A stretch of DNA of 20,843 bases, taken from positions 1-20,843 of IMG/VR virus record IMGVR_UViG_3300023180_000497; one strand, given 5' to 3'. Source of the DNA: a virus. Under the pieces are notes generated by a model. That model saw only the letters and a program-made list of their open reading frames with translations, was not told where the DNA came from and did not search any database. The position numbers were made by a program, and so were the translations under genes. Positions 3,819 to 16,175 of the stretch are shown in pieces; position 1 is the stretch's first letter; each line of letters starts with the position of its first letter.

Positions 3819-6800
3819 TTAGATTTCAGCACCTGCATTCGTTACAACAAAGTCGAGAGAGATGAACTCAACAGATCTGGTTGGTTGCAAGTAAATCTTT
3901 CCTCTAATTGTATTGTTTTCAACGTCTGCCTGTGTTGTAGTTGTTGTATCGATCTGTACTCTAAATCTATCCAAACCTTGTTGTTGCTGTATTCTTCCCA
4001 ATATCGGAGTCACAGCATTGCTGAACTTAGCTAATGTTGATTCTCTGTTCGGCTCGAAGAGAAGACTATTAGCAATATTTTTAACTTGACGTCTAACGTC
4101 AATCAAGAGTCTTCTCACGTTAACTCTATCCAGCGCGCTTTGTCCTGCCAACATTGTCTTTTGTCCCCAGATAACTACGCCCGGAGTTGACGGGAAAGAA
4201 GTAATTGGGTTGATGTCAGAATCGTATAAATTGTCCAAGTTAGATCTGTTGAGTTTAACCTGTTCTTCAATCACTGTTGAAAGTGAACCACGATTAAAAC
4301 CAGCCGGTGCGTACCAGGGATGTGCTACTGAGTCGTTGAAAGCAAACGCTCCAAGAACTGCAACAGATGGGGGACATTGTACATTCGTTAATGTCGCCCT
4401 GTCTTGAATCACAACATCTGGGAAGTAAGCAGCTGCAAAAGAAGTATCGAAGTTTCTAGATGCATGACGATCAACTGTGTTCCTAACATTAATGATCGAA
4501 TCAGATCCAGTTACTGCATTGTTCAGCGTATCTCTTTCCTCAATGTCCATGATATACAACGCATCGAATCTTCTTTCTACTGATTCAATCGCAAAATCTG
4601 TAACAGATTCATGTCTAACACCGGGGATTGCCAAAAGCTGGATGTCCACATCGGACTTCTCTTCCATGACTCGGATTGCTTTTCTGTATCCAGCAACTGT
4701 AGGACCGGATACACCGCCCTGATTTGCCGCGTCATCCATTTCTCTTCTCAAAGCTGCATCATTGAACTTTGCCTTGTCTTCGTCAAAGATATTGACGCCA
4801 TCGAAGCCTCCCTGAAGGGGGAACGTAAACTTAAGGTACCTTCTAGTCGGAAGATGTGCAAAGTCTGTAGAGGGATTCAAAAATCTTGTTTTTGTTGATG
4901 CAGTTCCATCAATATCTGTCATAGATCCAAGAACACCGTTTCGCCTGTATGCTGCGACAGCCCACTGTTTGTCGTCTGGGCGATCGCCAGATCCTGTTAT
5001 GACCTGGACTCTTTCAAGAGTAAAAATGTTATTATTGAATCTATCAGCGTCAAGGATTGACCCTCCGACGTCGGGTGTTCCTTCGTTTCCTCCAACAACT
5101 GGTGACTGCCAATCTGTGTGGAAGTCAGGCATGTAACGAACAAAACTTCTGATTGATTCGTTAAGTTTCTGATGTTTGTTGGGCTCTGTTAATGAATCTT
5201 TCTGTTCGAACTGTACACCCCATGTAAGTTTAGCATCCGCAACTTTCTTGGGTGAAGATCCCTTCGCAACTGTCTCTCTAAATGGGACAGGAGGCTGAAC
5301 GATTCTTCGAACGTCAACCGTCTGAGGTCCGGCAGTGTAAGAACCCCCTCGGGTATTCCAATCAGTTCCTGAAAGAATTGAGTTGGATCCTCCAGACGCT
5401 GAGCCTGAAGTGACTAGGTGATTAAGCCCTCTAAAACCTACAGGAAGTGCTGTATCGTTAAGAGCATTGTCCCTCAGATCACTTGAAAGCTCAATCCTTA
5501 TGTAATTTGATACATTTGGATAAGATCCATCAATGACCAACTTTTGACTTCCGGCGGATTTGTCAAAATCGTAGTATGTATGTGTATCACCGATTCTTCT
5601 TGCAACGAAATTATCACTTGATGGATTGAGATCAAGTCCGGCAAATCTTTCTAGAACAACTGGCTCTGAATCGCTATCAGCGAAATACCTAACTGCGAGG
5701 TCGAAGGTGCCGTAAGGATTATTTTCGTTAGTAGATGCTTGGATGTTTTCAATTGTAATCTTAAAAGCATCTGATCCGGCTCTGCCGTCGTCTAAGGCGT
5801 GTATCTTAAAGATGTTCTTGTTAACACCACCAAATTTTTGTGATATCACAAAAGGTGAGTATGCAGTTCTAAATCGATCCTCAAAGTTTTCAAAGCTAGG
5901 AACTCCTACTTGTGTTGATGTAGTAGATGATCCACTGTTTCTATTAGCTGATCCTGATAAGAGAAATGCTGCTTCAACTGACCCAGTGTATCCGGCGACG
6001 AGTGTGTCGTCATGTCCTGTTACACCTGATGCCGTTATGACACATTGTGTCTGATAAATATCGTATGAGCTATAAAGGTAATGCCCCATCTCTTCGATAC
6101 GTGTAGCATCTGTATTAAAAACCTTTGCGAAATAATTCGGTGCCTGTGGATCAAACGATGCTGTTATCACGTTTGTAGATGTGTCTGATTCTACATGACC
6201 GTTCAACATTAAAGAAAATTCTTGTTTAGAAGATGCTGTTTCAACGTCACCAAACGTTGATCCACCTGGAGTTGTTGCATTTGGAATGTTTTTGGTGCCC
6301 GCTACAATTGACCCGAGGGTCGCAAGAACGCCGCTGGGCGTCATTATAATTCCTCTTATAAGAGGATGAGCGTCGTCAGTCTGAATTCCTGCATCTTGAA
6401 GAAAGTTACTTCCGTTTGACTCAGAGTGGAAAGCACCTAAAAAGTAAGTTCTACCCAAGGAACCTCCGGAGGTTGCGTAAGGATTTGCTCCGACGTTTCC
6501 ATTACCCTGGACTTGCTCAGACCCTACGACGAACCCAGCATTCGTAACTTTACCAGAATTATCTCCTGACGAAGTTCTTTTCTTTGCGTCTCCAACACCA
6601 AGAAGTCTAACATATGTTCCTGCATTTGCGTTATTCAACCACTCACGCATAGCAAGAGGACCAAACTTTTCTCCGTCTGAGTTTCCGAATTTTGAAATGA
6701 AATCCTGAAACGTCGCGACCGTAATAGGCACGAAAGCAGGACCTCGAACTGCTGTTCCTATAACACCAGCTGGAACACCGGTAGGTTGAATTGCAGTCGG

Positions 6801-6860
6801 GCCACTTAAGTCTATTTCCCTAGTGCTTACGCCCGGACTCTTGAATGTTAGTTGTGTCAT
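3819..6860 (-). CDS. Tail sheath protein, copy A (gp18-like, 1013 residues)
   Basis: This is a contractile tail sheath subunit. The N-terminus (FKSPGVSTREIDLSG, then PAGVIGTAVRGPAFVP at 30-45, then KFGPLAMREWL) is the conserved start of phage sheaths. The C-terminal domain has WYAPAGFNRG, INPITSFPSTPGVVIWGQKTM and ALDRVNVRRLL (about 908-918), followed by the final strand VEFISLDFVVTNAG; these regions make the linked mesh of the contracting sheath. It is well above the 659 residues of T4 gp18, the extra length being in the middle (roughly 95-600), which probably forms outward-facing domains. AGGAG lies eight bases before the ATG. It is colinear along its whole length with the 1034-residue gene just upstream, so the two arose by duplication. 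Which copy makes the bulk of the sheath cannot be told. Confidence 0.93.
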   Translation of the reverse strand: MTQLTFKSPGVSTREIDLSGPTAIQPTGVPAGVIGTAVRGPAFVPITVATFQDFISKFGNSDGEKFGPLAMREWLNNANAGTYVRLLGVGDAKKRTSSGDNSGKVTNAGFVVGSEQVQGNGNVGANPYATSGGSLGRTYFLGAFHSESNGSNFLQDAGIQTDDAHPLIRGIIMTPSGVLATLGSIVAGTKNIPNATTPGGSTFGDVETASSKQEFSLMLNGHVESDTSTNVITASFDPQAPNYFAKVFNTDATRIEEMGHYLYSSYDIYQTQCVITASGVTGHDDTLVAGYTGSVEAAFLLSGSANRNSGSSTTSTQVGVPSFENFEDRFRTAYSPFVISQKFGGVNKNIFKIHALDDGRAGSDAFKITIENIQASTNENNPYGTFDLAVRYFADSDSEPVVLERFAGLDLNPSSDNFVARRIGDTHTYYDFDKSAGSQKLVIDGSYPNVSNYIRIELSSDLRDNALNDTALPVGFRGLNHLVTSGSASGGSNSILSGTDWNTRGGSYTAGPQTVDVRRIVQPPVPFRETVAKGSSPKKVADAKLTWGVQFEQKDSLTEPNKHQKLNESIRSFVRYMPDFHTDWQSPVVGGNEGTPDVGGSILDADRFNNNIFTLERVQVITGSGDRPDDKQWAVAAYRRNGVLGSMTDIDGTASTKTRFLNPSTDFAHLPTRRYLKFTFPLQGGFDGVNIFDEDKAKFNDAALRREMDDAANQGGVSGPTVAGYRKAIRVMEEKSDVDIQLLAIPGVRHESVTDFAIESVERRFDALYIMDIEERDTLNNAVTGSDSIINVRNTVDRHASRNFDTSFAAAYFPDVVIQDRATLTNVQCPPSVAVLGAFAFNDSVAHPWYAPAGFNRGSLSTVIEEQVKLNRSNLDNLYDSDINPITSFPSTPGVVIWGQKTMLAGQSALDRVNVRRLLIDVRRQVKNIANSLLFEPNRESTLAKFSNAVTPILGRIQQQQGLDRFRVQIDTTTTTQADVENNTIRGKIYLQPTRSVEFISLDFVVTNAGAEI

Positions 6861-6901: not shown

Positions 6902-9900
6902 TTACTCGAAGGTTACGCCGCTGTTTGTTATGACAAAGTCGATTGAAATAAATTCTACCGCTCTCGTTGGAACAACAACGATTCTACCATTCATTCTATT
7001 TTGTTCTGCATCTTGTGCTGTGTTATTCGTGCTATCGCAAATAACTTTAAATTGCTCTATTCCTGCCTGTAACTGAATTAACGCAAGAAGAGGTGTTACT
7101 TGATTCACAAATCTTGAGCGAGTTGCTGCGTTATTAGGCTCAAACAAGAATCTATCAGCCGCACTTGACACCTGACGCTTGATCTCCAACATGAGACGTC
7201 TTACGTTCACTCTATCTAGAGCAGATTTTGCAAACTGGAGCGTCTTCTGGCCGAAAATCACGAAACCATTGTTCGGGAAAACGGCTATCGGATTGATTCT
7301 TGCGTCATACAAAGTGTCTCTGTCTGCAGACGTCAATCTAGACTCAACATTAGAGACAAAGTCCATTCCTCCTCTGTTGAAACCTGCCGGTGCATACCAA
7401 GGAAATGATACTTTATCGTTGAAAGCAAGAGTTCCCATAGCTGCCACAGACGACGGAACTTTAACAACTCTGTTGTTAACTGGATCTTCTATGTGTACAT
7501 CCGGGAAGTACGTTGCACCGTAATTATTGTCAATTGCTCTACTTTCAAACTGTTCAGAAGTTTCTCTAACATCAACCTTCGCTGTACTGTCATCGTAAAG
7601 TCTATTTCCGGCTTCGTCGTACTTCAATGAATCTAAGAGATAAATGGCTTTTGAATAATCTCTGACTTTTTCCAGTGCATGGTCTGTTACGAAAGTCTCT
7701 CTAACACCTGGGATTGCAAGTATGTTGATATTTGAGGACATTGGATCAGTCATGATATCAACAGCACTTCGAAGAGTGGCATTAGAATTGCTCTTTCTTC
7801 CGAAACCACCTTGATTTTTATTTCCCACTAAAGGCATCCCAGTCGGTCCTGTTGATTCCTGAGATAGACCTCCTGTATCCGAAGAAAATGCTCTGTCACG
7901 GAGAAGATAGAGGTCCTTGTCAAGGATGTTAAGACCATCGAAGCCCCCGTGGAAAACATTAGTAAACTTAGCGTATGTTGTGAATCTATTGAACAGGACT
8001 GCATTCTTGTGAATCAAAGAAGCTAGCGTAAATCTGTTGCTAACTGTGCCATCCGAAACTGTGTATGTATTTCTATCAGGCGCTCCGTTTCGGATGTAAG
8101 CAGCTTCAAGCATGTGTTCGCTCGAAGAACCTGTGAATGCTGTGTCCAAATCGCTGAGCGTGTTGTTCGAAGTTGCATTGTAAAAAGCTACTCTTGCAAG
8201 TGTAAACTTATTAGAATTGAACTCATCTGCACCCGATCCTGTCACTAAGCTGTCAAGCTTTTCGATTCCTTGAAATTTCGTGTAAGATCTTACCAGTTCA
8301 TTTACTGTGTTACCCACGTTGGAATTTAACACTGGGTTGGTAACAGCATCAGATGTGGGTATTCTATGAACGTTAACACCCCAGTAGAATCTTCCGTCCA
8401 CTCTCTCATTTGTGCCGGGTTGCCCTGGCCAAGTCGCTGAGGCATTTCCTTCACCTCGAGTGACTTTAAATCTGTGTGGAAGAGGAGGTACAATTGCGTT
8501 AGCGAGATCCGCCGCTCCTGCGGAGGTGTGCAGACGATCCGTCCCGGCGTTTCCTATCGGCTTTCCGTATGTACCGGTAAGAGCTGTGAGTGAATCTGTG
8601 AGTGAATCTGTTGTCTTTATGACAGGAATCCCCTTAAATCCAAAAGGAAGTGCGTCTCTAGGAACCTCACCACTTTCAACTTGTGAATTCATCTGAATTC
8701 TTATTCTTGAAGAGATGTTCGGATATTTTCCTGAAATAACAAGACGACGTTCAGCAGGATCTTCTTGATCAAAATCGTATCTTACTTTTTTGTCACCAAT
8801 AACTTTGGCGACATATCTTTCGCTTCTTGGATTGAGGTCACATTCAGAATACCTCTCAATTATCTGTGTGGATGTATCCTTGTCATCAAAAGCTCGAAGC
8901 TGGACTTCAAAAGTTCCAAATGGATTGTTTGGATCTGTAGACGCTCTCAAATTCGCTATCGATATCTTAAATTTATCGTTAGCATACGCTCCGTCTGTAA
9001 TGGTCTCGAAGTGAAAGAGATCGTATTCCTTCTTTCCGTAAGGCTGTGATATGAAATTAGAAGTTTTCGGTGTTGTGTATCTCGTATCATATCTTCCGTA
9101 AACGTGCTGAGCGTTAAATCCACTGGCTAAGGTTGACAAAGAACCCGATGCTAATCCAACTGTATCAACGCCGGCGGACGCTTTAATAGGAGCAAGTTCA
9201 TGTTCGACTGCATAGTCAAGATAAAGCAAATGTTTTGTTTCCTGAAACTTAAGAGGATCTGTGTTCAAAACTCTGCTGATGTAATGACCGTCTTTTGGAT
9301 CAAGTGAAGCTGTGAGAATTCTAATCCCTGGATTTCCATCGTCGTTAGAAAATGATGCTCCAGAAGCACTTACCACCATTTTAAAATATTTGGTCTCAGA
9401 AAGCTGACTTCCGATTTTACCTACTTCAGCTCCAGCTACTTTGGCATCTGTTGTCGTGTACTGTTGATCATGATCAAGTAATTGGATTGTTGCATCTGTT
9501 GTCGTAAAAATCACGCCTCGAACGAGTTGAACATCGGCGTCTCCAGTACTTTGATTGTCTGTAAAGACTGAATATGCAGCTGCTTCATGTGTGACAGGTT
9601 CATGCTCAGCTGTTAAAAAGAAAACATCACCCTTAGAAGAATTGTTGGCAGTTACTTCTGATCCTGAGATTCTGAATCCTGCATTTTTCACGTAGCCATA
9701 TTGTTCTGTATTTCCAATGTCTGCGATAGACTCATTGGCGCCGGCGCCTAGGACTCTCATATAAGTCAATGATGTTCGATGCTTTAAAAATTCTCTTACA
9801 GCATACGGACCAAATCTATCTGGGTGTAGTGTTCCAAATCTAGATTCGAAATCTGCGAACGATCCTACAGTTACGGGGACAAATGCAGGACCGAATTCTG

Positions 9901-10006
9901 CAGTGCCAATTACACCTGCAGGGGTTCCGACAGGCGTTATTTGTCTCGACGAGAGATCTATCTCCTGTTCAAAAAAACCGGGTGATCTAAATGTTTGCTC
10001 AGCCAT
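6902..10006 (-). CDS. Tail sheath protein, copy B (gp18-like, 1034 residues)
   Basis: A second full-length sheath protein immediately upstream of copy A, separated by about 41 bases with its own AGGAG before each start. The N-terminus (FRSPGFFEQEIDLSS, PAGVIGTAEFGPAFVP at 29-44, RFGPYAVREFL) and C-terminus (WYAPAGFNRGG, INPIAVFPNNGFVIFGQKTL, ALDRVNVRRLM near 929-939, VEFISIDFVITNSG) carry all the conserved sheath elements, so it is not a decayed copy. The middle also aligns with copy A, for example DPNNPFGTFEVQLRAF against ENNPYGTFDLAVRYF, but with many changes and indels, including a 12-base tandem repeat coding TDSL twice. The divergence points to an old duplication kept by selection, perhaps for a mixed or layered sheath, a distinct collar or baseplate-proximal ring, or alternative outer surfaces. 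Confidence 0.92.
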   Translation of the reverse strand: MAEQTFRSPGFFEQEIDLSSRQITPVGTPAGVIGTAEFGPAFVPVTVGSFADFESRFGTLHPDRFGPYAVREFLKHRTSLTYMRVLGAGANESIADIGNTEQYGYVKNAGFRISGSEVTANNSSKGDVFFLTAEHEPVTHEAAAYSVFTDNQSTGDADVQLVRGVIFTTTDATIQLLDHDQQYTTTDAKVAGAEVGKIGSQLSETKYFKMVVSASGASFSNDDGNPGIRILTASLDPKDGHYISRVLNTDPLKFQETKHLLYLDYAVEHELAPIKASAGVDTVGLASGSLSTLASGFNAQHVYGRYDTRYTTPKTSNFISQPYGKKEYDLFHFETITDGAYANDKFKISIANLRASTDPNNPFGTFEVQLRAFDDKDTSTQIIERYSECDLNPRSERYVAKVIGDKKVRYDFDQEDPAERRLVISGKYPNISSRIRIQMNSQVESGEVPRDALPFGFKGIPVIKTTDSLTDSLTALTGTYGKPIGNAGTDRLHTSAGAADLANAIVPPLPHRFKVTRGEGNASATWPGQPGTNERVDGRFYWGVNVHRIPTSDAVTNPVLNSNVGNTVNELVRSYTKFQGIEKLDSLVTGSGADEFNSNKFTLARVAFYNATSNNTLSDLDTAFTGSSSEHMLEAAYIRNGAPDRNTYTVSDGTVSNRFTLASLIHKNAVLFNRFTTYAKFTNVFHGGFDGLNILDKDLYLLRDRAFSSDTGGLSQESTGPTGMPLVGNKNQGGFGRKSNSNATLRSAVDIMTDPMSSNINILAIPGVRETFVTDHALEKVRDYSKAIYLLDSLKYDEAGNRLYDDSTAKVDVRETSEQFESRAIDNNYGATYFPDVHIEDPVNNRVVKVPSSVAAMGTLAFNDKVSFPWYAPAGFNRGGMDFVSNVESRLTSADRDTLYDARINPIAVFPNNGFVIFGQKTLQFAKSALDRVNVRRLMLEIKRQVSSAADRFLFEPNNAATRSRFVNQVTPLLALIQLQAGIEQFKVICDSTNNTAQDAEQNRMNGRIVVVPTRAVEFISIDFVITNSGVTFE
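8585..8608. repeat. 12-base perfect tandem duplication inside sheath copy B
   Basis: The plus-strand unit TGTGAGTGAATC occurs twice in a row, adding one copy of the four-residue unit TDSL within the protein (TDSLTDSLTAL). It keeps the frame and lies in the variable middle domain, where the two sheath copies differ most. It probably arose by replication slippage. Confidence 0.8.
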
Positions 10007-12024: not shown

Positions 12025-13194
12025 TTATCCCATCGAAATAGCTTTGCCGTTAGGCATAGGAATTTGTCTAAGAATTCTTTGTAGATTTTCTGCTGCAGAA
12101 GCTTCTGACTCTAGCATCTTATCATAAGTCAACTCTTCAAGCATATCGCCTAACTTTGTTTTCAAGTTTTCTTTATCTTCTCTTCCTTGGGATATCAGAT
12201 CTGATCCGTTAAGCTGAAGATCTGCTCCTGGTATTGGAACAGAAGTAAACTTGGATCTTATCAATCCTAAGAGCTCTCTAGAGAGTGCAAGTGCATATTG
12301 TCTGATCCACTGCCTACCAATAGAATTAATTCTATTGTATTGTAGTCTCCCATAAGGTATGTTAGAAAGATTACTAATTCCCTCAATAGATGCATCAGAA
12401 AAAGAAGGATTTAAAGGGTCGGGAGAAAAATGAACTCTGATGAATAGGTTTTGCGGTTCAGAGTTTGTAGGCGTTGGAAAAATTCTGATCTTTGTGCCTG
12501 TTATCTTGTAAGAATAATTGCTCCTTCTTACTCTTGAAGACATATCTAGCATTCCGCCTCTAAGCACATCTTCGAAAACCGGAAGAACATAAAATACTGT
12601 CTCTGGAGTAAATGATTCGAAGCTAAACTCGTTGTTTAAGTAGTTTATAGCAGATGTTGTATCAAAAAATCTATAAGCTGCCTGTGGACTGAAGTGAAAA
12701 ACCTCCATAACCTTCATCTTAGTTTTTGGGTTATTTTTCTCGTTGTCAAAAAGTGCAGTACCTGCTGAATCCTTTAGATCAGAATACAGATCATAATCCT
12801 GCTTTCCCTTCTCTAGCGCAATGGAACCAGAAAGCATATTATAAGAACCACCCATTCCTGCTTCCATAGAATAAGGTTCTGCTCTTCTAAGCATGAACTC
12901 TAGATTTTCTCTAGGGAACTTCTGCTCTGATCCGTCAAGCGAACCAGTTGGCCCTCCAAGAAGATTGGCTAACTGTGATTTAGCTTGATACTGATTTATG
13001 ATTGAACTGTATTCTAGAGCAGATTCTTCTAGGCATGCCCAAATCTGTCTCTTGGTAAGTTCTACACTTAAGATATCATCACCCAGCTTTCTTTTAACAA
13101 ACGTGACAATAGAATCAGCTTCTGACTGAAAGTCGTTATCAGAATCGAAGAAACCAAAGGGCGTAGGATTTAAAATATCAACAAATCTAGACAT
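12025..13194 (-). CDS. Neck protein (gp13-like)
   Basis: A 389-residue protein from the ATG at 13194, chosen over an earlier in-frame ATG at 13221 because GAGG sits five bases before it and MSRFVDILNPTPFGFF reads as a normal N-terminus. The match to T4 gp13 is at both ends: VKRKLGDDILSVELTKRQIW (33-52) parallels the T4 segment with LRRLGAP..NVELT, and RQWIRQYALALSRELLG (about 294-310) followed by IPGADLQLNGSDLISQGRED parallels the T4 segment with DYATALAKELNG and DGQRLIEEA. gp13 binds the head-completion site under the portal. The middle (about 60-280) is larger than in T4 (309 residues in all) and carries VFHFSPQAAYRFFDTTSAI and FVYVLP-like strands. It is first in the 13-14-15 series and ends six bases before gp14-like. 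Confidence 0.8.
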   Translation of the reverse strand: MSRFVDILNPTPFGFFDSDNDFQSEADSIVTFVKRKLGDDILSVELTKRQIWACLEESALEYSSIINQYQAKSQLANLLGGPTGSLDGSEQKFPRENLEFMLRRAEPYSMEAGMGGSYNMLSGSIALEKGKQDYDLYSDLKDSAGTALFDNEKNNPKTKMKVMEVFHFSPQAAYRFFDTTSAINYLNNEFSFESFTPETVFYVLPVFEDVLRGGMLDMSSRVRRSNYSYKITGTKIRIFPTPTNSEPQNLFIRVHFSPDPLNPSFSDASIEGISNLSNIPYGRLQYNRINSIGRQWIRQYALALSRELLGLIRSKFTSVPIPGADLQLNGSDLISQGREDKENLKTKLGDMLEELTYDKMLESEASAAENLQRILRQIPMPNGKAISMG

Positions 13195-13213
13195 GGAAAC
13201 CTCACTAACTATA

Positions 13214-13222
13214 ATTATCACA
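13214..13222 (-). promoter_or_regulatory. Weak extended -10 promoter candidate before gp13-like gene
   Basis: The minus strand reads TGTGATAAT, a TGn extended -10 with a hexamer matching 5/6. No convincing -35 lies upstream. It sits in the 112-base gap between the coiled-coil gene and the gp13-like start, about 20 bases from the ATG. Nothing else is recognised in that gap. Confidence 0.25.
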
Positions 13223-13306: not shown

Positions 13307-13639
13307 TTATTGCATAAATTTTTGAGACCAAGCCCAAAGTGCCATGAGAAACTGCACGACTGCAAAGGTCGTGATTGCCTTCGTCTTAAACATCTTAAGA
13401 TCCTCAACTTCTTTAACTAAAACAGAGAGTTGAGTAGGTGAAACGACATCATCGACTTTTTCTTTCCAGGCTCGAAGCTCATCGACCTTGTCTTCCCTTA
13501 CCTGCATCTTTGCAATTTCTTGCTTGACTTCTTGAAGCTCTTCTTTCAATCCGTCAATATTGCTAGCAAGATTCTCAAGCTCCTTCAGGACTAACCGTGA
13601 ATACTCGTTCCATCCGTTCTGATTCGAATCACTTGACAT
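13307..13639 (-). CDS. Small coiled-coil protein with C-terminal membrane helix
   Basis: A 110-residue protein of unknown function. The start is the ATG at 13639, five bases after GGGAGG; a GTG one codon earlier is too close to the ribosome binding site. Residues about 12-84 form a long heptad-rich coiled coil (EYSRLVLKELENLASNIDGLKEE..., VKEVEDLKMF), and residues about 88-106 are a hydrophobic segment (AITTFAVVQFLMALWAW) with a short tail, so it looks like a C-tail-anchored membrane protein. There is no signal peptide and no lipobox. Small phage proteins beginning WxEYxRLVLxxLExL and ending in such a helix are familiar to me, but none has an established role that I know. The gene overlaps the end of the PAS-domain gene by 11 bases, suggesting coupled translation and a shared job. 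A holin-like or spanin-like role is possible but the long coil argues against a simple holin. Confidence 0.85.
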   Translation of the reverse strand: MSSDSNQNGWNEYSRLVLKELENLASNIDGLKEELQEVKQEIAKMQVREDKVDELRAWKEKVDDVVSPTQLSVLVKEVEDLKMFKTKAITTFAVVQFLMALWAWSQKFMQ

Positions 13640-14189
13640 CACTTCCTCCCGCGGTCATTAAAGAAAATAGTTGACTTTTGCCAATCGCCTCGTTCACCTT
13701 TTTCAAAATATCTTCATGAGTTCCAGATTTTGACTCTGTGAGACTTTTAATCTCTATCAAGGTGTTTAATATGAAGTTGTTAGAAGAGACATCCCACGCA
13801 ATTCCAGAAACTCCTATGACCGTGTCGTGATCATCTCTCCTGGGTGCGATGGTCACATAGTAAGATCGATCGGCTTTTTGGACTAGAATACTGTTTGATG
13901 ACTTGGAAGAATTGATGTGTGTTTTCATGATCTTATCACCAAGATCAGGACAGTCAAAAACCTCCAGAAGAGTTTTTCCTTCTTTGCAAAAGAATCCTTT
14001 GTTTCTCTTTGTTAAAATTTCTCCGGACAAATTTGCAGACCACATACTGACAGGTACGGGAAAGTTTTCTAGGAAATCCTCAAAAAGTCGAAAGTCTCTT
14101 TTGATCTGTACATCTCTATCAGTAAGTACGTCAACCAGAGATTTTAACTCTCCCAATACAGATTGTGTTTGTTTGAATTTCTTAGGCAT
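13629..14189 (-). CDS. PAS-domain protein
   Basis: A 186-residue protein with one PAS-type sensory/interaction domain at about 36-137. The signature runs FEDFLENFPVPVSMWS (strand A, with the usual PxP), GEILTKRNKGFF (strand B and start of the helices), GKTLLEVFDCPDL, then SYYVTIAPRRDD (strand H) and the classic ending VIGVSGIAWDVSS (124-136). PAS domains bind small ligands, haem or flavin, or dimerise. No histidine kinase, GGDEF or DNA-binding domain follows, only helices (NTLIEIKSLT, HEDILKKVNEAIGKSQ). H91 and C68/C80 are present but nothing proves a cofactor. The helical first 33 residues could extend the dimer interface. It is the first gene after the capsid terminator, with only a weak GAG near the ATG, and overlaps the membrane coiled-coil gene. 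It is not a recognised T4 structural protein; acquisition as a signalling or virion accessory gene is inferred. Confidence 0.8.
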   Translation of the reverse strand: MPKKFKQTQSVLGELKSLVDVLTDRDVQIKRDFRLFEDFLENFPVPVSMWSANLSGEILTKRNKGFFCKEGKTLLEVFDCPDLGDKIMKTHINSSKSSNSILVQKADRSYYVTIAPRRDDHDTVIGVSGIAWDVSSNNFILNTLIEIKSLTESKSGTHEDILKKVNEAIGKSQLFSLMTAGGSDVK

Positions 14190-14229: not shown

Positions 14230-14260
14230 AAAAAAAGGGGCGTCCTTTTCAGGACGCCCC
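14228..14260 (-). terminator. Rho-independent terminator after the major capsid gene
   Basis: On the minus strand a nine-pair perfect stem (GGGGCGTCC with GGACGCCCC), a six-base loop TGAAAA and nine T follow the capsid stop codon by about 25 bases. This is a textbook intrinsic terminator and closes the head-gene transcript, separating very highly made capsid mRNA from the neck and tail genes. Confidence 0.95.
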
Positions 14261-14285: not shown

Positions 14286-16175
14286 TTAGATCACGCTCAT
14301 GTCGGCGCATGTAACGGTACCGTAGAAGTCACTTCTAACCATCTTCTTACCGTAGCGAGTCATGACACCCTTACGTGGGGTGAAGTCCTCTGGTGCGAAG
14401 ATCGTTGGAGTAACGATCAGCGGTACGTACGGAGCGTAAACGTATCCTGTCTCCAGGTAGCTTCCGCCCTTGTAACCAACAAGAACCTTGTTGCGTGGGA
14501 AGTAAGGGTCCTTGTAAACCGTGAAACGATTTGAAAGGGTACCAACCTTCTCAGCGCCGATTACCATGCCACTAACCTGTCCGTCTCCGTCGAGGCTGTA
14601 TGATGGCTTGTAAAGAACGCTTGCTTCAAGGATAGTAGCAACGTCTGGTCCAACAACAATGAAGTTAGCGGAACCACGAAGTGTCTTTCTGTGGATCTGG
14701 TTTGCGACGTCGATGATCGTCTCTACGAGAGTCTCATACCACTCACGAACTGTACCAGTGAAAGTACCAACGCTAGAAACCGCACCTGTTTCCTTGTTCA
14801 AGAAACGACCTGGTGCACGTGACCAGTAGTAGTTGGCAGCACCAGCTTGTGTGAGAAGATCGTTAAGAACCTCTCTGTCGATCTCAAGAGCAATCTGCTC
14901 TGAAAGGATCTGGGTCAACTCAACCTCAGCGTCAAGGCTGTGGTAAGCGTTAAGATCCTGAGCAAGCTCTGGTGACCAACGTGCTCTCAACTTACGTGTC
15001 TGGGCAACAACTGGAAGTGCCTCGACCTTGATATCGATCTCTGGGATCTCAGGTGAAGGATCTGTTCCGAAGTTAGATTCGAAAGCAGGAACAACCAATG
15101 AGCTACCATCAGATGAAGCAAGTTCTGCAGACATCGGATATGCTAATGTAACCTTGCCGTCCGCCGGTCGGTCCTTATCGTTGTCAACTGCACCTGACAC
15201 AACCATCAATACAGCTGCATCAGCGTGGGTAATTGAAACAAGAGGATCAGGAGTAAAGACACCACCTGAGAATCTTCCAAGTTGATTCAAACGTCTGACG
15301 TTCAGAACAGCAGTACCTTCCTGGATCGGATTGCCGTTTGCATCGTTTCCGATCGGCTTGAGTTCGACTGCTGCTTCATCTCCGTCTGTTGCGATAGCAG
15401 CAACTTCCTTCACAAGAGTTCCGTCGAGATTTGGCATAGCAGCTGTATCAACGATCATGAACTTGTATGTACCATTACCCGGTGCAATACCTGGATTTGC
15501 ATTACTCTCGATCGCGGCAAGGATCTGCGGGTCAAACTGCAAAAATTTCGCGTCTGATCCTGTAGCGTGTAGACATGTTGCGTCTCGATTCCCACTTAAA
15601 GCGGCGTCCGATCCAAATGATCCAGTGAACAAAATTTCCGCTTTTAGAGCTGTGTCTGTCTTGTGTGCTCTAGAGAAAGCCAATCCCGCAAGGTCAAACT
15701 GACCTCCGACAGCATCAGATCCTGCTTGAACTGAGGATCCTACTGGACTATTATAAACTGATGATCCAGTATTATACTTAGCTCCTTGGCCCGAAACATC
15801 ACCTACGACTGTTCCTCTTGTGTAGTCCAAGTAGAACAACAGTCCTGAAGGAAGGCTCATTGGCTGAATGCTTACGAGATCGTTAGCAATAAGGCCTCCG
15901 AAAACTCTTCTTACGATCGGGAAAGCAATGTTCGTGAAACCACGCATGTCGCCGCTGTTGGCAAGGTTTCCCCCACCTGTTGAGAGAGATGATTGCTCTT
16001 TAAGAACCTGGCTTGCCTGATTCTCCATGAGACGAGCCATGTTCTCTCTTTTGACTCCATCGAGTCCTCTAAGAAGACCCGTACGAGCCCACTTTTCTAC
16101 GAGCTGAACGTTCTGAGATCCGAGATGTCTCTGGCGGATTCCTTCAGTCAGCTGCTCCAATGAAAACGTTGACAT
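14286..16175 (-). CDS. Major capsid protein (gp23-like)
   Basis: A 629-residue HK97-fold capsid protein of the T4 gp23 family. Clear landmarks are MARLMENQ (46-53, the ENQ motif of the N-terminal arm), FTNIAFPIVRRVFGGLIANDLVSIQPM (80-106), the RKLRARWSPELAQDL and LDAEVELTQILSEQIALEIDREVL stretch (about 390-440, near identical in pattern to gp23), and the C-terminal PTIFAPEDFTPRKGVMTRYGKK. In T4 the gp21 protease removes 65 residues after an LxE site; here LKE at 58-60, followed by QSSLSTGG, sits in the same place. The protein is about 100 residues longer than gp23, with extra sequence around 130-380 that is Gly, Ser and Asp rich. AAGGAG precedes the ATG, ten bases after the scaffold stop. Flanking parts use C-ending codons and CGT/CGC, while roughly 134-212 uses more AAT, TAT, TTT and AAA. 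Confidence 0.95.
   Translation of the reverse strand: MSTFSLEQLTEGIRQRHLGSQNVQLVEKWARTGLLRGLDGVKRENMARLMENQASQVLKEQSSLSTGGGNLANSGDMRGFTNIAFPIVRRVFGGLIANDLVSIQPMSLPSGLLFYLDYTRGTVVGDVSGQGAKYNTGSSVYNSPVGSSVQAGSDAVGGQFDLAGLAFSRAHKTDTALKAEILFTGSFGSDAALSGNRDATCLHATGSDAKFLQFDPQILAAIESNANPGIAPGNGTYKFMIVDTAAMPNLDGTLVKEVAAIATDGDEAAVELKPIGNDANGNPIQEGTAVLNVRRLNQLGRFSGGVFTPDPLVSITHADAAVLMVVSGAVDNDKDRPADGKVTLAYPMSAELASSDGSSLVVPAFESNFGTDPSPEIPEIDIKVEALPVVAQTRKLRARWSPELAQDLNAYHSLDAEVELTQILSEQIALEIDREVLNDLLTQAGAANYYWSRAPGRFLNKETGAVSSVGTFTGTVREWYETLVETIIDVANQIHRKTLRGSANFIVVGPDVATILEASVLYKPSYSLDGDGQVSGMVIGAEKVGTLSNRFTVYKDPYFPRNKVLVGYKGGSYLETGYVYAPYVPLIVTPTIFAPEDFTPRKGVMTRYGKKMVRSDFYGTVTCADMSVI

Follow-up and report, generated by a model that had tools for sequence, protein, structure and literature searches.

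A PAS-domain protein gene is linked to the gene of a conserved coiled-coil membrane protein in a family of uncultured T4-like viruses

Here, we describe two overlapping viral genes, one encoding a PAS-domain protein (the partner) and the other a small coiled-coil protein with a C-terminal membrane helix (CC). The window, i.e., the whole stretch of DNA analyzed, spans an entire IMG/VR record (20,843 bases). CC is the conserved element of the pair and defines a new family, as yet unnamed and confined to viruses; the PAS domain is optional, with a short non-PAS helical protein found instead in about one-third of the relatives sampled. Our leading interpretation, which we hold tentatively, is that the pair constitutes a two-protein membrane module in which a tail-anchored hub and an exchangeable cytosolic regulator would act by contact on a late membrane event, lysis timing being the first candidate.

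Both genes are carried on the minus strand. The CC gene (13307..13639; ORF from ATG) encodes a coiled coil of 110 amino acids with a C-terminal membrane helix, and an alternative GTG start lies one codon before the ATG, moving the gene start to 13642. With the ATG start, its ORF overlaps by 11 bases that of the partner gene (13629..14189; ORF and predicted structure), which encodes a 186-amino-acid PAS protein without an output domain. The flanking genes, which we place outside the module, encode the gp23 major capsid protein (14286..16175, minus strand; Pfam PF07068, 4.3e-77) and a gp13-type head-tail adaptor (12025..13221, minus strand; phrog_211, 2.3e-10, a match that we take to be T4 gp13). 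An intrinsic terminator after gp23 (14237..14260, minus strand; 10-bp stem with 8 G-C pairs and a T9 tail) parts the pair from the capsid gene. An earlier note on this DNA had described the 11-base overlap and the position after the capsid terminator, between head and neck genes, and all of these features were confirmed. No Rfam match or tRNA was found in the window, and TATAAATA, presumably the T4-type late promoter motif, was not enriched there (16 matches versus 19 expected). Farther along the same strand, two adjoining tail-sheath-like genes (3819-6860 and 6902-10006) each encode more than 1,000 amino acids; the median identity of relatives' best matches was 34% for the former and 58% for the latter, figures in which cross-matching between the two genes is possible.

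The window PAS protein alone scored too low for the Pfam cut-off of PAS_4 (E = 0.074), and the same family was matched by 16/25 of its relatives (E up to 0.1; best 5e-5). Structure prediction from the single sequence gave a pLDDT of 37, and an alignment of 25 relatives was used instead; the resulting AlphaFold2 model of the 186-amino-acid partner had a pLDDT of 83.1. The model consists of a long N-terminal helix (residues 5 to 41; 14067..14177, minus strand; pLDDT about 70), a PAS core (residues 45 to 134; 13788..14057, minus strand; pLDDT mostly about 90), and C-terminal helices (residues 135 to 180; 13650..13787, minus strand). Foldseek matches of the model in the PDB were mostly PAS and LOV proteins (best E = 2e-5), and VIA-align returned Z scores of 10.9 to the PAS domain of SrrB (rmsd 2.6, 82 residues) and 10.8 to that of ThkA. 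Stand-alone PAS proteins of uncultured phages, about 170 amino acids long, were also similar to the model (BFVD A0A6J5KZZ3 and A0A6J5RGP7; Foldseek E = 9.5e-6 and 1.2e-2, respectively). We conclude that the partner carries a PAS fold, which is predicted with confidence and further supported by the conservation of its core. No other domain was found in the 186 residues, in agreement with the original description of a PAS domain lacking an output domain.

The N-terminal helix, here termed the RD helix, is marked by conserved residues L15, L18, L22, R25, D26, and K30. It is the only part common to PAS and non-PAS partners, and profile matches in the non-PAS partners are confined to it. In the PAS core, W50 and G129 are conserved, and C80 and H91 are present in most sequences: among 40 window-type PAS proteins, C80 occurs in 34, H91 in 34, and the pair C80-P81 in 28, with 24 sequences having all three residues. 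The helix preceding the third strand of the core contains H91, and it is in this region that haem-PAS proteins such as FixL carry their axial histidine. Judged from the residues, the C80-P81 and H91 pattern could fit haem or redox sensing, and we treat it as a lead only. A tblastn search of phage records with the window PAS protein gave no match; a PAS_B query gave one, in an unannotated Pseudomonas phage record (E = 2e-12).

CC begins with an N-terminal signature (residues 7 to 24; 13568..13621, minus strand), defined by conservation across 110 representatives, in which W10, E12, Y13, S14, L16, V17, L21, and L24 are invariant (110/110). The coiled-coil stretch (residues 17 to 57; 13469..13591, minus strand) rests on this conservation and on heptads read from the sequence, with a/d residues unbroken from V17 to M45 in the window CC. 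Past the coiled coil, K59 and P68 are near-invariant, and W58 and Q96 are again invariant (110/110), Q96 sitting inside the C-terminal membrane helix (about residues 86 to 106; 13322..13384, minus strand; hydropathy and conservation). A strong hydrophobic helix (mean hydropathy ≥1.5) ends within 12 residues of the C terminus in 107/110 relatives, followed by a median of 4 residues; the best 19-residue stretch of the window CC is weak (mean hydropathy 1.30) and falls at the low end of the family range. The coiled coil ending in a membrane helix that the earlier note described is confirmed.

Relatives of CC were found in at least 315 IMG/VR contigs (315/326 stretches confirmed in one scan), and further scans confirmed 254/303 and 313/335 stretches in overlapping sets. 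The gene is single copy in 36/36 whole records (up to 289 kb). Among stretches from cellular genomes, 1/148 contained CC, a contig in a Prochlorococcus single-cell assembly. This contig (L103; QCKH01000014.1, Prochlorococcus sp. AG-409-L21) is a phage contig with CC and a third type of PAS partner, and its CC shares 94% identity with the CC of the viral contig L157. The assembly hints at a Prochlorococcus host for this branch or at a co-sorted virus. A search of 50,697 INPHARED phage records at tblastn sensitivity returned no convincing CC relative. The window CC found only two Vibrio matches in phage records (E = 0.2), and two further CC queries (L119 and L039) found no match. The distant CC L221 matched 82 records, for the most part of T5-like Klebsiella phages and with E values no lower than 0.04, which we took as chance, since the Sugarland protein lacks the signature and shows no clear membrane helix. 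Matches of L044 in Xanthomonas phages were coiled-coil matches within structural proteins. Likewise, matches of CC to Pfam, NCBIfam, and PHROG families (FlgM, Rad50, ZapB, DivIC, CENP-F, and others) were rejected as coiled-coil noise. The DUF7201 coiled coil (PF23831) was matched by 3/37 CC members with E values of 0.01 or lower, the best being 2e-4, which may reflect coiled-coil bias.

To return to the pair, a scan with the PAS alignment that made no use of CC yielded 42 loci, and CC starts within 21 nt after the PAS gene in 41/41 usable ones; the remaining locus (L308) ends inside the PAS gene. The co-occurrence of the two genes is therefore conserved in PAS-led loci, and the lack of linkage that would have refuted the earlier note was not observed. 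Partner profile matches were detected in 21/36 whole records, always adjoining CC (10 at full length, 11 over the RD helix and the start of the next part only). Partner types were assigned for 111 of 115 CC representatives, which came from four scans (the best 80 in three of them) and one genome contig, the other 4 being cut at a contig edge. A PAS partner accompanies 58 of these (41 of the window type, 13 of a classical PAS_3 type, and 4 of a third type near PAS_9), a short helical partner 36, and no detected partner 17; these proportions are not population frequencies because of the scan sampling, and most records are fragments. In this tally, L038, L183, and L165 were labeled by visual inspection, and L115 counts as PAS_B. 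The PAS_3 type rises above the Pfam cut-off in L046, L049, and L124 (1.4e-17), starting soon after the RD helix. Where gp13 lies downstream (47 loci), 38 loci have the window PAS type, 5 have a short partner in the same slot, and 4 are edge-cut. On the CC tree, which is poorly resolved with many unresolved branches (110 columns, 110 rows; L125, with a short CC, left out), the partner labels need at least 14 changes versus 61 in shuffles (L115 counted as PAS_A).

The two genes also differ in how fast they change. In loci with gp13, CC shared a median identity of 67% with the window (n = 47), gp23 65% (n = 32), the neck protein 71% (n = 47), and the PAS protein 36.5% (n = 38). Median dN/dS was 0.049 for CC and 0.165 for the partner (40/78 pairs with usable values), and both genes are under purifying selection. 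Given these identity and dN/dS figures, CC has the constancy of a core gene, and the partner can change but is still under selection. Since 36/111 partners have no PAS domain and 17/111 representatives have no detected partner, sensing cannot be the core function.

The pair occurs in several genomic settings. In the first, that of the window, the order is gp23-PAS-CC-gp13. In the second, gp20-x-PAS-CC-x-gp21-gp22-gp23, the order was established from L110, where portal and protease were confirmed, and from L118, and is indicated in 13 loci by gp21 and mostly also gp22/gp23 relatives downstream of CC (L125 is cut); T4 carries genes 67/68 at the place of the pair. In the third, CC lies away from head genes. 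Among 35 records, gp23 was matched in 26, with CC within a few kilobases in 11, far away in 14, and one match being a fragment. A hairpin terminator stands just before the partner gene in 25/32 window-type loci versus 9/300 random segments, a contrast flattered by the mostly coding control; the pair therefore seems to start its own transcription unit.

Several other genes were noted around these loci. Two gp23-like capsid genes stand in tandem in four records (G001, G002, G019, and G028). Members of a protein family of about 130 to 210 amino acids, starting MPKVKYT..KGLVQS.G.G, recur as insertions on either side of the pair (L012, L022, L031, L035, L066, L158, and others) and may be head surface proteins. 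In L031 (9384-10547, plus strand; Pfam Tubulin, 6e-5) and L078, a tubulin/FtsZ-like GTPase of 388 to 393 amino acids (GGGGGTGSA) lies between CC and the neck gene, about 1.3 to 2.5 kb after CC. Tubulin-like proteins occur in 13/35 records, with frames of about 800 amino acids in three. A role of CC as an anchor for the tubulin of L031 and L078 was considered and dropped, as tubulin is encoded mostly elsewhere in those 13 records.

The head-cluster settings bear on what we consider an unlikely explanation but rank second, namely, that CC serves head assembly as a membrane tether or chaperone, replacing gp40 without being homologous to it and keeping the portal initiation complex at the inner membrane, with the partner adapting CC to scaffold or host and PAS serving as a dimerization or interaction fold. 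T4 head assembly begins on the inner membrane and requires gp40 (PMC9958956). This head vertex assembly chaperone resembles CC in being a small membrane-associated protein, and some members of the CC family have the pair within a head cluster; unlike the pair, gene 40 sits between uvsX and 41 in T4. Relatives of gp40 (PF11113) were absent from 33/33 CC records (T4 control, E = 4e-30), the pair is found inside the head cluster in two different gene orders, and CC is as conserved as the head proteins, all of which are consistent with such a stand-in. However, CC is far from gp23 in the 14 of 26 gp23-matching records given above, the terminator parts the pair from gp23 in 25/32 loci, and CC has no similarity to the T4 prohead core proteins gp67 and gp68 (hhalign probability 0.1).

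The fast change of the partner raises another explanation, to which we give somewhat less credence: the module would act on the host, by blocking or hijacking a membrane or signaling system or by excluding superinfection or defense, and the partner would track host variation. PAS domains are common in host kinases, the partner has been exchanged repeatedly, and no phage-encoded kinase was found in 33/35 records. HATPase_c is absent from the pair itself and present anywhere in the phage in only 2/35 records; hence, a phage-encoded kinase partner is not the rule. Against action on the host, the CC signature is extremely fixed across contexts, unlike typical arms-race proteins, and there is no known host target.

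In the third setting, CC can follow an endolysin. The endolysin of L053 (Amidase_2, 2.1e-16; peptidoglycan-binding domain, 2.4e-6) is encoded upstream of CC on the same strand, and an endolysin of this type lies within 8 kb upstream, on the same strand, in 16 of the 32 CC loci whose partner is short or lacking; for several of the remaining 16, the upstream sequence is shorter than 8 kb. In whole records, an amidase was found in 20/35, with CC 2 to 6 kb after it in 11 and far from it in 9. The latter include G006, the sole record of the window type that has CC next to gp23 and a clear match over the full length, and the 11 former are not independent because the CC tree groups them on about three branches (LRshort, L148, and L190). 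The genes between endolysin and CC are mostly metabolic and point in the same direction (L053, L057, L074, and others), including glutamine synthetase (Pfam 1e-21 in L053) and, as identified by eye, thioesterase-like and ThyX-like genes. In L101, the order is endolysin, thioesterase-like gene, 63-amino-acid ORF, short partner, and CC; in L074, it is endolysin, glutamine synthetase-like gene, short partner, and CC. Given these metabolic genes, the proximity could be incidental, and the loci are also mutually related. The proximity supports a link to lysis without proving one.

An endolysin upstream in part of the family is also what might be expected if CC alone were a one-helix holin of an undescribed family, with an antiholin-like partner in which PAS only dimerizes, a proposal that we consider improbable. 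CC has a single membrane helix and is single copy, and the T4-type holin T family was absent from 33/33 records (T4 served as the positive control). Single CC members gave weak collinear matches through the membrane helix to the holin/hemolysin profiles phrog_689 and phrog_937 (E = 8e-4 to 8e-3); the best of these (phrog_689, 8e-4) came from a distant member and is at noise level for a coiled coil with a membrane helix. However, no recognized holin family in Pfam or PHROG matched CC at a meaningful score, and with a median of 4 residues after the helix, CC has no periplasmic part like that of T4 holin T, which consists of an N-terminal helix and a periplasmic domain. Spanins are recognized by an N-terminal membrane helix with a periplasmic coiled coil; the CC helix is C-terminal in 107/110 relatives, and no Rz family match was obtained (phrog_13 only, E = 0.24). 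CC is thus not a member of a recognized holin or spanin family, membership of which the earlier note had named as a refuting result. A nonhomologous protein such as CC could replace either holin T or gp40, and the two absences favor neither.

That the two genes are mere neighbors with separate functions is highly improbable: 17/111 CC representatives show no partner and small overlapping phage genes are common, but linkage in one direction is 41/41 and extends across unrelated gene orders, and L165 keeps a partner-like gene nearby despite an intervening gene.

We therefore return to the membrane module, in which CC would be the hub, its N-terminal signature and coiled coil facing the cytoplasm. 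It would be held in the inner membrane by the single C-terminal helix with its invariant glutamine, probably as an oligomer, as suggested by an invariant polar residue in a membrane helix together with the heptads. The partner would bind the hub via its N-terminal RD helix, and the region after this helix would be the exchangeable regulator: PAS in the window, another PAS type or a short helical tail in relatives. The state of the PAS domain (ligand, redox, or dimer state) may then change hub assembly, most likely by direct contact because no kinase, DNA-binding, or cyclic-nucleotide output is attached. PAS domains commonly relay signals by dimer rearrangement through flanking helices, and here the relaying helix would be the conserved RD helix. 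We infer the contact between the RD helix and CC, the topology and oligomerization of CC, the sensing, and the output in lysis. A hub with adaptors most simply explains why the membrane protein is fixed, the partner's first helix is its only constant part, and the regulatory domain has been exchanged repeatedly. The process controlled would most likely be a late membrane event. We favor lysis timing, given the small size and membrane helix of CC, its position after an endolysin in part of the family, and the lack of a T4-type holin; membrane-based head assembly is ranked next on the strength of the two settings within head clusters. The soluble sensor with a membrane-tethered partner originally envisaged stands in part. 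The exchangeable domains on a shared RD helix and the position of CC 2 to 6 kb after the endolysin in 11/20 amidase records speak for it, but the PAS domain is not obligatory, with about a third of relatives having a short non-PAS partner. A fuller version seems to us doubtful as a whole: a lysis or late-membrane clock with a fixed tail-anchored hub and an RD-helix partner swapped between PAS types and sensor-free forms, the window-type PAS possibly binding haem or reporting redox state through C80-P81 and H91.

Known systems resemble parts of this module. XhlA-type holin accessory proteins combine a short coiled coil with a membrane helix at the C terminus, as does CC; unlike them, CC has a fixed WNEYS signature, and Pfam XhlA was not among the reported CC matches. 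RIII, which acts on T4 holin T, is not known to have a PAS domain. In T4, antiholins gate the holin and the timing of lysis depends on a signal (PMC8385771). Holin T with RI and RIII is similar to the arrangement proposed here, in which a partner protein would gate a one-helix membrane protein, and differs in that its family was not found in the 33 CC records. A new class of one-helix lysis protein in mycobacteriophages has its helix at the N terminus (PMC13056207). VqmA of vibriophage VP882 is likewise a phage-encoded PAS protein, and its structures (7dwm and 6ugl) were among the fold matches of the partner. It is a PAS quorum-sensing receptor tying host state to phage lysis via DNA binding (PMC8284805). 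VqmA has a C-terminal DNA-binding domain and acts in transcription in a temperate phage, whereas the pair described here has no output domain, a membrane partner, and a T4-like phage background. In open-licence papers on PAS domains in T4-like, jumbo, or uncultured phages, we found no description of the pair.

Lytic phages are usually thought to follow an internal timetable, and a well-known phage PAS sensor is a transcription factor of a temperate phage. If the membrane module is correct, a lytic phage would read the state of the cell and act directly at the membrane via an exchangeable sensor partner. The WNEYS signature of CC is a marker for a large group of uncultured phages, and in these viruses the pair may make a late stage of infection responsive to the condition of the host cell.
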